DNA from: Pseudomonadota bacterium | GTDB lineage: Bacteria > Bdellovibrionota > FAC87 > UBA2466 | Length of the DNA stretch: 39,710 nt | Direction of reading: 5' to 3' | Assembly (NCBI GenBank): GCA_009927165.1 | Contig: RFNO01000127.1 | Location: 1 to 39,710 of the forward strand | In this document: in pieces, positions 1,934-26,464 of the stretch | How the letters are laid out: each line of letters begins with the position of its first letter | How positions within the stretch are numbered: position 1 is the first letter of the stretch | Made by a program: the position numbers and the translations under genes | Notes under the pieces: model-generated | Seen by the model: the letters and a program-made list of their open reading frames with translations, nothing else | What the model was told of the DNA's origin: nothing | The model's database searches: none

Positions 1934-4264
1934 TCAATTCAATGACTCGGGACACCAATACCAAAATGGATTTTCTTCACTAGCGCTCATTTGTAGCCAA
2001 TTCGGTATATCCGTTCTGAAATAAGCTAATTGACTTAATGATTCCAGAAGTTTGGGGGTGGTTCGAACCACCTCGAATTTAAATTCATCCAGCCCAGCGG
2101 AGCTTTTTACTTCTTCAATAGCATCCAGAATACTCCCCACCTCATCTACTAATTTCCCCTCTTTGGCCTTTCTACCTAACCAAACCCTACCCTGGGCAAC
2201 AAATTCAACTTTTTCGCGGTTTAATTTTCTATGCTCGGAAACGTAGTCGATGAAAGTGTCATAGTAATGATTCACTTGTTTTGCAATGATGTCGCGCTCT
2301 TCTGGCGACCATTTTTGGGATTCACTGTAAATCCCTGGGTAAGGGCTACGACTCAAAATCTCTTTGGAAAGGTCCCACTTTTTGTAGAGTGATTCTAAGC
2401 TGGGCTTTCCGGCAAATACGCCGATTGAACCTGTTAACGTGAGTGGTGAGGCAAAAATCTTTTTTCCTGGAGCTGAAATAAAATATCCACCGCTTGCTGC
2501 CACATCTCCCATCGAAATTACAACGGGTTTTATGGAAGCTAGTTTTTTAATTTGGTTGGCAATCTGGTTGCTCGCCAGAACATCGCCACCACCACTCGAA
2601 ACTCGCATAACTACGCCTTTGACTAAGGGGTCATTCTGTACGCGGCTGAGAAGTTTTCCCATTTTTTCTGGAGTGATTTGGTCTGAACCAAAAAGCCCAA
2701 GGATTTTTATTTTTTCTTTAACGATATCACCCTTAGCCACAATAACCGCTACTTTTGGAGGGAGAGAAAGACGTCTGGATTTTGATTCACCCATTTCTCT
2801 CAGATTGAGTGCCTCAGAAAGTTCCTCTTGAACTTGGGCAGGATCCGAAATCCTATCAACTAAATTAATTTGAAGAGCTTCTTTCGGTGAGAGCAAAGCC
2901 ATTTTTCGGGCTTGGTTCCACTTAGCCTCTGAAACTCTTCCATGTTTCTGAATAATCTGAGCTATTTCTTTTTCGGTTTGATCCAGGATTTCAAAAGTGT
3001 TTTTACGACTGCTTTCCGATGCTCGTTTCATGGTGAAAGTTTCAGGAGCGGACTTGTATTCACCCCTTTTTACCATGTCGGCTTCAATTCCTAATTTATC
3101 GAGTGTACCTTTCAAATAATATCGCTCTGATTTTGGACCAGTCAGTTGCAAACTTCCGGAAGCATCGATTGATATTGAGTTGGCCGAAGTAGCAATTAAA
3201 TATTCTTTTAAATTCGCATTTCCTAAAGCAACATGAATTATTTTCCCTCGATTCCGCGCTTTAGATAAAGCTGCATTCAGCTCAGTTGCTGCTCCCATTC
3301 CTAATGGAAAAGATTCTAAATCGACAAAAATGCTTCGTAATTGGGGATTGTCGGCAGTTCGATCAATTTTCAGGAGCAATTCAGAAAAAGATTCTTGTCC
3401 AGAGGCAAAAATACTGGAGGATTCGCCCTCTTCGCTTAAGTCTGAGTCTATTTTGACTTTGAGTGCTGTCGTGGCTGATTGGGCCGAGGGGTTGGGCAGA
3501 GTGGAGAATTGAGCGTGTGCCACTGCCGTTTTTTGTGATGATTCTGGCCTAGCGAATGAGGAGAGGGAGGTTCGTCCAAAGTCCCACTGAATCCCAAAAT
3601 GGGCTTCTGCTTCTTTGTCGTATCCAGCAGATAGAAACAAGTCTTGTAACAATTCGAACTGGACAGAGCTCTGATAATTCCATGCTTTTCCAAAACTGTC
3701 CGAGGAAGTCTCAAAATCAGCCACGATCAGTAATCGTTTTAGCGGTTGTATGGTCAAACCCAATGTGTATTGTTGAGATAATTGGGCCCCATTCTGAAAG
3801 GGCTGATTCAATCGATTGGCGAGTAACCCAAACGAAAAAAAAGGGGAAGGACGAACTTGCAATCCTAAATCGATTTGAGTAATTCCATCCAAATTAGGAC
3901 CAGAGGAAGTAAAAGCTAGGCGAGTTCCCAAAAAAAACCAAGGACTCAATGAAAGGGAGCTGCCTAAGCTGTAACGTTGCCTATTGCCGGTCCCGGAGAG
4001 AAAGGTTTCAATACCTAAACCCCAAGCTCCGTAGCCTAGGCCAACGGCTAAATCATTCGCACTGTCTTTAAGAGCCCAAGATAATGAGGAGCTAAAGTGA
4101 GATCCATTCAGCTCTCTTTGATAAGCAAGCCCTGCCGGATTAGTGAAAACGGTGCGAGCGTCATAAACATGAGAAACTGAGGTGCCAGTCTCAAGGATCT
4201 CTTTTGCCCAGCTTGCTTTTGGCAGCATTAAAAATAAAAGTGAAACCAAAAAAAGAATTTTCAT
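1934..4264 (-). CDS. sppA: SppA-type (S49) peptidase fused to an N-terminal outer-membrane barrel-like domain
   Basis: This is a 776-residue protein with a signal peptide (cleavage expected after ASWA, residue 20). Residues 21-240 are alternating, Gly/aromatic-rich strands starting with a TNPAGLAY motif, as in PorV/FadL-like barrels. Residues 265-776 hold tandem S49 domains as in long-form SppA. The general-base Lys is K404 in GEYKSA and the nucleophile is S591 in AASGGY, so the Ser/Lys dyad looks intact. SppA normally degrades cleaved signal peptides and is tethered by one N-terminal helix. Here that anchor is replaced by a barrel-like region, which would place the protease at the outer membrane. 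It lies 48 bases downstream of murI on the same strand. The peptidase call is firm; the barrel call rests on strand pattern only. Confidence 0.88.
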   Translation of the reverse strand: MKILFLVSLLFLMLPKASWAKEILETGTSVSHVYDARTVFTNPAGLAYQRELNGSHFSSSLSWALKDSANDLAVGLGYGAWGLGIETFLSGTGNRQRYSLGSSLSLSPWFFLGTRLAFTSSGPNLDGITQIDLGLQVRPSPFFSFGLLANRLNQPFQNGAQLSQQYTLGLTIQPLKRLLIVADFETSSDSFGKAWNYQSSVQFELLQDLFLSAGYDKEAEAHFGIQWDFGRTSLSSFARPESSQKTAVAHAQFSTLPNPSAQSATTALKVKIDSDLSEEGESSSIFASGQESFSELLLKIDRTADNPQLRSIFVDLESFPLGMGAATELNAALSKARNRGKIIHVALGNANLKEYLIATSANSISIDASGSLQLTGPKSERYYLKGTLDKLGIEADMVKRGEYKSAPETFTMKRASESSRKNTFEILDQTEKEIAQIIQKHGRVSEAKWNQARKMALLSPKEALQINLVDRISDPAQVQEELSEALNLREMGESKSRRLSLPPKVAVIVAKGDIVKEKIKILGLFGSDQITPEKMGKLLSRVQNDPLVKGVVMRVSSGGGDVLASNQIANQIKKLASIKPVVISMGDVAASGGYFISAPGKKIFASPLTLTGSIGVFAGKPSLESLYKKWDLSKEILSRSPYPGIYSESQKWSPEERDIIAKQVNHYYDTFIDYVSEHRKLNREKVEFVAQGRVWLGRKAKEGKLVDEVGSILDAIEEVKSSAGLDEFKFEVVRTTPKLLESLSQLAYFRTDIPNWLQMSASEENPFWYWCPESLN

Positions 4265-6914: not shown

Positions 6915-7202
6915 TTATTCCTCGTGGCCATTTCCTTTCTGAGACCCATAGAAAGAGCCAGACTCAAAGCTAGATGCGAATCCTGCCACCGTGGTTACTT
7001 CAGATTCATCCTCAGCAGGCAGAACTTCCACTTTAGGTTTTCGCTGCGCCGACTTTGGTGCAGAGCGTTTTTTTGGAGTCGCCCGTTTAGCGGGCTTTTT
7101 CACAGGTTTTTTGGCCGGCTTTTTTTTCGAAACTTTCTTCTTAGCGACCTTCTTTTTTGCTGCTTTGCGCGATTTCTTTTTTGCTGCTTTTTTCTTAGCC
7201 AT
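6915..7202 (-). CDS. Lysine/alanine-rich histone H1-like DNA-binding protein
   Basis: 95 residues. Residues 1-60 are almost entirely Lys, Ala, Pro and Arg, in repeats of the AKKK / KKPAKK type seen in eukaryotic H1 tails and bacterial H1-like proteins. The last 35 residues are acidic and Ser/Gly-rich (EDESEVTT...). The composition predicts a disordered, strongly basic protein that binds nucleic acid without sequence specificity. The start has a good ribosome site (AGGAG before the ATG). It is divergent from another basic protein (7408) across about 205 AT-rich bases. The specific role in nucleoid packing is inference. Confidence 0.8.
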   Translation of the reverse strand: MAKKKAAKKKSRKAAKKKVAKKKVSKKKPAKKPVKKPAKRATPKKRSAPKSAQRKPKVEVLPAEDESEVTTVAGFASSFESGSFYGSQKGNGHEE

Positions 7203-7407
7203 TATTTTCTCCTGGTTGAAGTTAAAAAAATAAAATTTTCCACAGGGTGGTTTGAAAAAAATGCCTAAATTTAAAAGGGTTGTCGAGTTTTAAGATTGAT
7301 TTTAGAGAAAAAAAACATTATCTCTGTCTTATATCATTCGTCTTTTAGACTGACATTTAACAGTTAAAAAAATCTGATCGCAGTACTGGGTCATGGGAGG
7401 GGGGCTT

Positions 7408-7899
7408 ATGGCCAGAGCTGTAAAGTCGAAAGTCCGTAGAGGCGTTAAGTTAGCCAAAGCGATAAGTAAAAAGAGTGTAGCGAAACCAGCTCGGATTAAA
7501 AAAACAGTGACGAAAGTTGCTGCCATTAAATCTGGGACGAAAATAATGAAGAAAGTTTCCGTGGAAGTAGCTTCTTCTGAAGCTGCCAAAAAGAAACTTT
7601 CGGAAAAATTTCTCGCTACGATTGAAAAACGCAAGGCAGAACAAGATAAGAAGCCTGCTTTTTCAAAACCTCGGGGTCGTCGAGGAAGAAGACCTAAGAA
7701 TCTAACTGATTATCAACCGTACAGTGAAGAACAGGAAGACGATCAGTATTCTTATCAGTCCGAGAACGAGAATCTTGAGTACGATACTGGGATTCGGGTC
7801 CAAAACGCACCGCAAACGGGAATTGCGTTTCGTGATGATGGATTAGTCACATTGGATCGGGTCGAAGATTTCGACGAAGAACTCAACTTTGATTGGTAA
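7408..7899 (+). CDS. Basic protein with AT-hook-like motif and acidic C-terminus
   Basis: 163 residues from the ATG at 7408, which follows GGAGGGGGG at suitable spacing; an ATG at 7393 lies upstream of that ribosome site and is less likely. Residues 1-85 are Lys/Ala/Val-rich. Residues 86-98 (KPRGRRGRRPKN) contain an AT-hook-like RGRRP core. Residues 100-163 are acidic and rich in Tyr, Gln and Glu (QEDDQYSYQSE). The layout of basic arm, minor-groove hook and acidic tail suggests an architectural DNA-binding protein. I do not recognise a named family. It is divergent from the H1-like gene and convergent with the CNNM pair. Confidence 0.75.
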   Translation: MARAVKSKVRRGVKLAKAISKKSVAKPARIKKTVTKVAAIKSGTKIMKKVSVEVASSEAAKKKLSEKFLATIEKRKAEQDKKPAFSKPRGRRGRRPKNLTDYQPYSEEQEDDQYSYQSENENLEYDTGIRVQNAPQTGIAFRDDGLVTLDRVEDFDEELNFDW

Positions 7900-24565: not shown

Positions 24566-26464
24566 TCAGAAGTAATAATTCAAAGACAATTTGGCTTCCT
24601 GAAAGCCGCTGAAAAATGATTCTGAAGCCGCGTGCCAAACTCCCATTGAGAGTCTGGCTTCCCAAGACTGGTTTAGACTTAACGCGTGTTCCCAATCCCA
24701 TTGGAACATTTGACCCGGTCGGTCAGACTGAAATAAATCCCACATGAGAGTCGATGAAAGTCGAGTTTTATAATTTTCGAAAGGATTCAATATCGAAGCA
24801 AGTTGCAATTTAGGACCAAGCCGAAATCCTCTGATGAAATGGGTGGAACCGTCGATATAACCTAAAGCTAAGAAGTAGAGCACGTTTCGCTCACCTAAAA
24901 ACCCAATACTCGCGCCTAAACCCGTTTCAATTCTAAATACGCCTGAACGGTCCAAATTGAGATCACGTGCTCTTAAGTAACCCAGTTGAACTTTCCAAGA
25001 AGGGCGTTTCTCAATAAAACTGAGAGGAAAGAGTGACGTAATATGCAGAAGTTCCAATTTTTCTAATTGAAACGCCTGCCGCTCAGGATAGTAGCGAAAA
25101 TAAATATTAGGAAAATCTATTTGGGAATTTCGAATGAATCCCAAATCTTTATTGAGCAGATCGTGATAGGCCGACTTAATTCCCACTTCCTGAAAAAAAC
25201 CAGGGTCTTGGGCTGAAGGAGATCCGAGGTACCCAGGAGATAAGCTAGCTCTGTAGGAGTAATGGCCAAGATCGGGCCGTGTTTCTTCCTCAATGGTTGT
25301 AGGGGAATCTCCTGCATCGGCAATCTTTCCCATTTTGCTTCTTTGGATCAACAAACTGGCTTGTAGGGCTTTATCTTTTTCAGAAAATTTGGCGGCTTTT
25401 TCCTGTTTTTCATAAAATAAATTGGCAATGGCAGCATCTAATACAAAAGGATCGGCAACTGTTTCCGGTTCTATTTTTTTTGAGAGAAGAGATTTCAATT
25501 GCTCTTTTTGGGGGGAGGAAAGGGTTTGAGCTTTTTGTAGCATTTTTTTTCTCAATGAAGGACGAAATCTAACGTGAGTGACTGCTCCTGGGGTATTTGT
25601 AACTTTTTTGACTGTTTCACTGGGAATAACGTAAATCGGGAAATTGGAAATGTTCCATTCGGGTTTCGCTACTTCCAAAAGAGTCATGAGTTCATAGGCA
25701 CAATTTTCATCAAAAAAGTAATAATCAAAGTAGCTATTGGTCTCTATTTCCCAAACATGATTAACCAAAGATCGAGTTTCTTCTTCGTTGAGATTTAAGT
25801 CATACTCCCAGACATCGCGGCTTTCTGCATTGCTGTACTCATTTACTTTTACGTAGTAAGGGACCGATGAAAACTGTCCCCGATAACCCCCTGTAAGTCC
25901 TAAAACAATAAAGGCTAGTGGATTTTCATCATCACCAACTGATGCGGCAAAACTGATACCGTAATCCAAAATATCCATTTTCTTTTCTTTAGATTTTGTT
26001 TTCCGATTAATTCGAAGAAAAGTATGACCAAACATCGAGCCAGGATTGTTAGGATAGGCACTCGAAAAAACAAGAGTCACTGAATGCGGTTCAACTCTCT
26101 TCATGAAGTCTTCCAAAAGGGGACACTTCACTTCGGAAATCTGAAGACCGAGTTCCTTTTTAAGAAAAGCAAACCTAGCTGGAAAAGCACATTGCGGGTG
26201 TTGCTTTAGCTTACCGATTTCCATGGTTTTTGAGAAAGCTTCAACACTCGCTTGAAGCTCTGCTAGCGGATTGGTCTTTCCCTCAGGGCTAAAGAAGAAC
26301 TCAGAGCCATCCACTTGGCTTTTAATTTTCCCAAAAGGGAATGATGGCAAGTAATGCATCAAGCGGTGCCATTGAGGAGATTCAGCTATTTCTGCTTCTC
26401 GGGACAGGCTGAAGCCGACAGTGGAATAACTCACTATTAACAAAGAAAGAACGAGAGTTTTCAC
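24566..26464 (-). CDS. DUF4105 (Lnb-type) periplasmic domain fused to a C-terminal beta-barrel
   Basis: 632 residues with a signal peptide (about 1-19). Residues 120-290 match the DUF4105/Lnb_N pattern: SSAYPNNPGSMFGHTFLRI with H147 and FFDENCAYELMTLL with C255, a likely Cys/His pair. Residues 300-400 are a charged helical linker. Residues 420-632 alternate aromatic and polar strands and end in Phe, like an outer-membrane barrel. Some DUF4105 proteins of Bacteroidota have been reported as lipoprotein N-acyltransferases, so a lipoprotein- or lipid-modifying role is a reasonable hypothesis, not shown here. Confidence 0.8.
   Translation of the reverse strand: MKTLVLSLLIVSYSTVGFSLSREAEIAESPQWHRLMHYLPSFPFGKIKSQVDGSEFFFSPEGKTNPLAELQASVEAFSKTMEIGKLKQHPQCAFPARFAFLKKELGLQISEVKCPLLEDFMKRVEPHSVTLVFSSAYPNNPGSMFGHTFLRINRKTKSKEKKMDILDYGISFAASVGDDENPLAFIVLGLTGGYRGQFSSVPYYVKVNEYSNAESRDVWEYDLNLNEEETRSLVNHVWEIETNSYFDYYFFDENCAYELMTLLEVAKPEWNISNFPIYVIPSETVKKVTNTPGAVTHVRFRPSLRKKMLQKAQTLSSPQKEQLKSLLSKKIEPETVADPFVLDAAIANLFYEKQEKAAKFSEKDKALQASLLIQRSKMGKIADAGDSPTTIEEETRPDLGHYSYRASLSPGYLGSPSAQDPGFFQEVGIKSAYHDLLNKDLGFIRNSQIDFPNIYFRYYPERQAFQLEKLELLHITSLFPLSFIEKRPSWKVQLGYLRARDLNLDRSGVFRIETGLGASIGFLGERNVLYFLALGYIDGSTHFIRGFRLGPKLQLASILNPFENYKTRLSSTLMWDLFQSDRPGQMFQWDWEHALSLNQSWEARLSMGVWHAASESFFSGFQEAKLSLNYYF

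Follow-up and report, generated by a model that had tools for sequence, protein, structure and literature searches.

The E. coli signal peptide peptidase SppA is an inner-membrane enzyme held in place by an N-terminal transmembrane helix (PMC9360617). A gene from a Pseudomonadota bacterium (GTDB: Bdellovibrionota; FAC87; UBA2466) encodes an SppA-like protein in which this helix is absent and is replaced by a signal peptide and a predicted β-barrel, raising the question of whether some bacteria hold a Ser/Lys peptidase at the outer membrane. Here we describe the organization, predicted structure and distribution of this protein, which we call barrel-SppA, starting from the 39,710-nucleotide stretch of DNA that encodes it (contig RFNO01000127.1 of assembly GCA_009927165.1; hereafter the window). 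Our sequence analysis and structure predictions suggest that barrel-SppA is probably a second, outer-membrane-tethered and periplasm-facing Ser/Lys peptidase.

Gene organization and the S49 protease module

The gene is an intact minus-strand open reading frame of 776 codons, counted from its ATG, and encodes a 776-residue protein. The protein consists of a signal peptide, a domain spanning approximately residues 24 to 254 and a complete tandem (67K-type) S49/SppA module (residues 265 to 735), in this order, and the linker between strand 14 of the predicted barrel and the protease comprises only about 10 residues. Read from the sequence itself, the domain order, signal peptide, catalytic dyad and their conservation are established. 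The features, all on the minus strand of the window, are as follows.

1934–4264, minus strand: whole barrel-SppA gene (signal peptide, predicted 14-strand barrel and tandem S49 (SppA) protease; 776 residues)
4205–4264, minus strand: signal peptide, residues 1–20 (MKILFLVSLLFLMLPKASWA), from the sequence and from matching signal peptides in most homologues
4133–4141, minus strand: NPA motif, residues 42–44, in the FadL-type N-terminal hatch segment before strand 1, from the alignment and model
3503–4102, minus strand: predicted 14-strand outer-membrane β-barrel, residues 55–254, from AlphaFold2, Foldseek, amphipathic alternation and loop asymmetry
2765–3472, minus strand: first S49 domain, residues 265–500, providing the dyad lysine, from the first PF01343 stretch and the 3bez alignment
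3053–3055, minus strand: codon of Lys404 (YKSAPE), equivalent to Lys209 of E. coli SppA, from the 3bez alignment
2060–2761, minus strand: second S49 domain, residues 502–735, providing the dyad serine, from PF01343, TIGR00706, 3rst and 4kwb
2492–2494, minus strand: codon of Ser591 (AASGGY), equivalent to Ser409 of E. coli SppA, from the 3bez alignment
1937–2056, minus strand: C-terminal tail, residues 737–776, modelled by AlphaFold2 with low confidence

The Pfam family PF01343 matches the protein twice (5.3e-61), with the best stretch at residues 574 to 725 and a first stretch that scored 65.5 bits in the genome scan. The TIGR00706 profile scores 230 bits, above its cut-off, whereas the profile of the 67K SppA, TIGR00705 (aligned over positions 76 to 547 of 590), scores 265 bits, below its cut-off of 311.45, and the window protein is thus a divergent relative rather than a TIGR00705 equivalog. 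E. coli SppA (PDB 3bez) aligns along residues 290 to 739 (3.5e-42), covering nearly the whole S49 module. In this alignment, K404 and S591 pair with residues 184 and 384 of the 3bez chain, which correspond to K209 and S409 in E. coli numbering by a constant offset of 25, counted by hand. The second S49 domain is additionally matched by 3rst and 4kwb, both by sequence and by fold. Every one of the 30 fused proteins inspected retains the dyad lysine and serine, in agreement with the first-pass annotation, which had held that both catalytic residues are kept. The region around K404 (residues 386 to 411) is modelled with low confidence in the full-length AlphaFold2 prediction.

The same annotation had proposed that the membrane anchor of SppA is replaced, and this also holds for the N terminus. 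The signal peptide has a putative signal peptidase I-like site (S-W-A↓K), so that the mature chain would begin with KE after MKILFLVSLLFLMLPKASWA, and inspection of residues 1 to 20 revealed no lipobox cysteine. At the other end of the chain, the tail terminates in a short aromatic or hydrophobic motif (PFLYW-like) common to most Bdellovibrionota members. Since the title of the Bacillus SppA entry 4kwb, a fold match of the S49 part, names C-termini bound in active sites, self-trimming of the C terminus may, by analogy, be common to both proteins.

Predicted fold and orientation of the N-terminal domain

Residues 24 to 254 of the window protein have no match in Pfam or NCBIfam, and the Toluene_X, UPF0164 and PorV_fam profiles do not match the window protein. 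Weak matches occur among its relatives, to the NCBI profile PorV_fam in three of ten family members (best, 6.6e-4) and to UPF0164 (best, 0.013). AlphaFold2 modelling of residues 20 to 262, together with nine relatives (ten sequences in total), yielded two short helices and exactly 14 antiparallel strands, with a mean pLDDT of 79 and a pTM of 0.78. The full-length model contains the identical strand set at lower confidence (pTM of 0.51), and the relative placement of the barrel and the protease is therefore not fixed by the model. The strands are preceded by the N-terminal hatch, in which the NPA motif is modelled as a short helix. NPA is invariant in the ten-member alignment, the hatch motif is conserved across three phyla, and the motif also occurs in FadL, for which a 'delta NPA' mutant has been deposited (2r4o).

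With the barrel model as the query, the 50 PDB fold matches listed consist almost entirely of membrane β-barrels, including KdgM, TodX, TbuX, CymD, FadL, OmpG and chain F of both 6h3i and 8gl6. The two chains F, from type 9 secretion system (T9SS) entries, have the top query-normalized TM-scores among the listed matches (0.68 for 6h3i and 0.66 for 8gl6), TodX and FadL are likewise high among them, and the sequence identities in the fold alignments are low (6–15%). The 6H3I entry has been termed a 'PorV complex model' (PMC10994853), and we infer from the chain length that its chain F is PorV itself. The N-terminal domain is thus predicted to be a FadL/PorV-type 14-strand outer-membrane barrel. 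The first-pass annotation had described about 220 residues with PorV/FadL-like strand character; the barrel character is upheld by the structure predictions of both the domain and the full-length protein, neither of which produced a soluble domain, and the size is corrected to nearer 230 residues (24 to 254). With 14 strands in 200 residues, the barrel is compact for the FadL family.

A hydropathy analysis of the modelled strands is consistent with this fold. The hydropathy difference between the two strand faces averages 2.12, as compared with 1.17 ± 0.24 when residues were shuffled within the strands, and none of the 2,000 shuffles reached the observed value. The turns following strands 2, 4, 6, 8, 10 and 12 comprise two residues in the ten sequences, except for the S8–S9 turn, which has three residues in two members, whereas most of the loops following odd-numbered strands are longer or variable. 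Outer-membrane barrels usually have short periplasmic turns and longer or variable outer loops. By this rule, the even strand number and the loop asymmetry predict that the N terminus and the C-terminal protease both face the periplasm.

Three other readings of the N-terminal domain were weighed against this evidence. Barrels of the FadL type transport substrates through a lateral opening, and PorV is a carrier of secreted proteins; the barrel might therefore serve not only as an anchor but also as a substrate-binding or transport element, taking up or laterally extracting peptides, lipopeptides or lipoprotein pieces for the protease bowl. The retention of the hatch motif in all three phyla would suit such a function. 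However, the barrel loops are short and variable, and the barrel is less conserved than the whole protein, with the invariant columns gathering mostly in the S49 part, and we regard this function as improbable.

Slightly less credible is an arrangement like that of the inverse autotransporters, in which the N-terminal barrel would help to export the S49 module to the cell surface for the digestion of external peptides. The order of an N-terminal barrel and a C-terminal passenger does resemble that of intimin and invasin, whose C terminus is exported (PMC3467248), and the even strand number, taken alone, is compatible with this topology. By contrast, the top fold matches belong to FadL/PorV barrels, whose lumen is plugged, no intimin-type barrel occurs among the 50 listed Foldseek matches, and the conserved NPA hatch implies that the lumen is filled. 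Moreover, the linker of barrel-SppA leads directly into a large, compact, oligomer-forming enzyme, unlike a series of small Ig-like domains.

Finally, a soluble β-rich N-terminal domain, with the protein either periplasmic or retained at the inner membrane by an uncleaved signal anchor, would fit the lack of a curated family match in the window member, but is highly implausible given the 14-strand amphipathic meander with its two-residue turns, the fold matches almost exclusively to outer-membrane barrels and the A-x-A-like cleavage site of the signal peptide.

Distribution and genomic context of barrel-SppA

Within the Bdellovibrionota family to which the window belongs, 10 of 14 genomes, its own included, encode full-length homologues (39–54% identity across both families), as does the sole sampled genome of a second, sister family of the same order. 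A scan of 369 Bdellovibrionota genomes with the barrel alone as the query confined the fusion to these two families; in the other genomes, weak matches were found in six, mostly to open reading frames of about 280–300 residues. Scanning genome contigs with the whole protein as a single sequence gave no match, whereas the barrel alignment as the query did find homologues. The named records among the homologues are Bdellovibrionales or Deltaproteobacteria metagenome-assembled genomes (MAGs).

The barrel–S49 architecture was also identified in one Krumholzibacteriota and one Neomarinimicrobiota MAG. By our own count, 21 of 61 sampled Neomarinimicrobiota genomes and 13 of 58 sampled Krumholzibacteriota genomes have a profile match that starts inside the barrel, in a frame of at least 780 residues. 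A barrel profile, which itself includes one member of each of these two phyla, confirmed all of the fused frames that were fetched (12 of 12 from Neomarinimicrobiota and 7 of 7 from Krumholzibacteriota; E values from 7.7e-71 to 4.3e-12). The domain pair, for which a search in other genomes had been suggested, is thus a recurrent architecture present in at least three phyla and not a one-off. Chance or an assembly artefact as the source of the fusion is ruled out, because it is present in over 30 independent genomes. A quick tree of the S49 part (37 rows) recovered the Bdellovibrionota and Krumholzibacteriota clades with support of 100 each; its deep order is without support and fits one or several fusion events.

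Two further barrel proteins were encountered in these searches. In another Bdellovibrionota family (genome G022), locus L056 encodes, at 1177–2058 on the minus strand, a stand-alone barrel of about 294 residues that is related to the N-terminal domain and is possibly an unfused cousin of it. In Candidatus Mcinerneyibacteriota, locus L044 (669–2126, plus strand) encodes a UPF0164/FadL-like barrel fused to two ComEA-like helix-hairpin-helix motifs, with barrel profile scores below the cut-offs (PF03687, 4e-4; PF03349, 2e-3). This protein pairs an outer-membrane barrel with a DNA-binding domain, perhaps for the uptake of DNA.

The genomic site is conserved, with cinA and the gene for a small CxxC-type protein adjoining barrel-sppA in both Bdellovibrionota families, and murI adjoining it in the window's genus. 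Other family members instead encode, directly upstream of barrel-sppA, a protein of about 295 residues (L037, 5058–5933; L038, 5040–5942); these proteins are 36–63% identical among themselves and have no Pfam match. The neighbours (murI, cinA, the CxxC-type protein and a GGDEF protein) are conserved in place and provide no functional clue. Among the four family members in which no fusion was seen (G004, G006, G008 and G010), the site was located only in G008, in which the contig ends beside it. Elsewhere in the window are a protein with Lnb_N, DUF7843 and DUF7840 domains (24566–26464, minus strand), in which a periplasmic-enzyme domain is again combined with further domains, amid envelope genes; a very basic, Lys/Ala-rich, histone H1-like protein of 95 residues with no Pfam match (6915–7202, minus strand); and a very basic, GRR-rich protein of 168 residues that is conserved in the family (7393–7899, plus strand).

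All 11 Bdellovibrionota carriers additionally encode a short S49 protein of about 300 residues as a separate chain, and this short protein is the only S49 protein seen in the four family members for which no fusion was recovered. That of the window genome has 313 residues and, as would befit an inner-membrane SppA, a single hydrophobic segment at its N terminus. The coexistence of the two proteins suggests that barrel-SppA has a task of its own and is not the housekeeping enzyme. Its substrates may also differ from those of ordinary SppA, as had been proposed, and the short S49 protein in every Bdellovibrionota carrier is the one observation that bears on this point.

Proposed mechanism and comparison with known systems

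We propose the following model for barrel-SppA as a peptidase tethered to the outer membrane and facing the periplasm. The protein would be exported by Sec through its signal peptide, which is then cleaved, and its N-terminal part, folded as a 14-strand barrel of the FadL/PorV type with its NPA hatch, would insert into the outer membrane, a location that we infer from the predicted fold. The barrel would act as an anchor, taking the place of the helix that holds ordinary SppA in the inner membrane. After strand 14, the chain would emerge into the periplasm and form the tandem S49 module, and such modules would assemble into a bowl, probably a tetramer by homology with E. coli SppA, in which each active site combines the lysine of the first domain with the serine of the second. 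Short or unfolded peptides would then be cut near the inner face of the outer membrane, with released signal or lipoprotein peptides, protein fragments and stalled outer-membrane proteins as candidate substrates, and barrel-SppA would work beside the separate S49 protein of the same genome.

The recurrence of the fusion in at least three phyla suggests that, in some bacteria, the outer membrane holds an additional protease of the SppA type, and the conserved lineage, together with the separate S49 protein, implies a dedicated Ser/Lys peptidase there in Bdellovibrionota and several deep uncultured phyla. If this location is correct, it would represent a new place for Ser/Lys chemistry and a route for clearing peptides and the debris of outer-membrane proteins and lipoproteins. 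A bolder extension, which we consider unlikely but worth stating, is a widespread, undescribed class of ClpP-fold proteases at the outer membrane. In these, the FadL/PorV-type barrel would gather or pull out peptides or pieces of lipoproteins there and feed them to the periplasmic SppA bowl; if true, the outer membrane would have its own pathway for peptide disposal or quality control, alongside that of the inner-membrane SppA.

Both halves of barrel-SppA can be assigned to known folds or families, and the combination is recurrent in genomes yet undescribed in the open-licence literature, as no description of the fusion was found among open-licence PMC papers. As to a possible link with the T9SS, the SprA profile gave no match in 15 relatives and equally none in 14 controls, a comparison that lacks a positive control and is thus uninformative.

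Barrel-SppA shares with E. coli SppA (protease IV, 67K, MEROPS S49; 3bez and 3bf0) the tandem S49 arrangement, with the lysine first and the serine second, but differs in having a cleavable signal peptide and a predicted outer-membrane barrel in place of the transmembrane helix, and in missing the TIGR00705 cut-off. With the 14-strand barrels of the PorV/PorQ and FadL/TodX families (6h3i, 8gl6, 3bs0 and 1t1l), it shares the predicted 14-strand fold and the NPA hatch, whereas its barrel is much smaller (about 230 residues), is fused to a protease and has only 6–15% identity to them. A protease also works beside a PorV-type barrel at the outer membrane in the PorU–PorV attachment complex of the T9SS, but there the protease, PorU, is a cysteine sortase of the C25 type and is located at the cell surface. 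PorU and PorV are separate chains, whereas the S49 protease of barrel-SppA is part of the same chain as its barrel and is predicted to lie on the periplasmic side.
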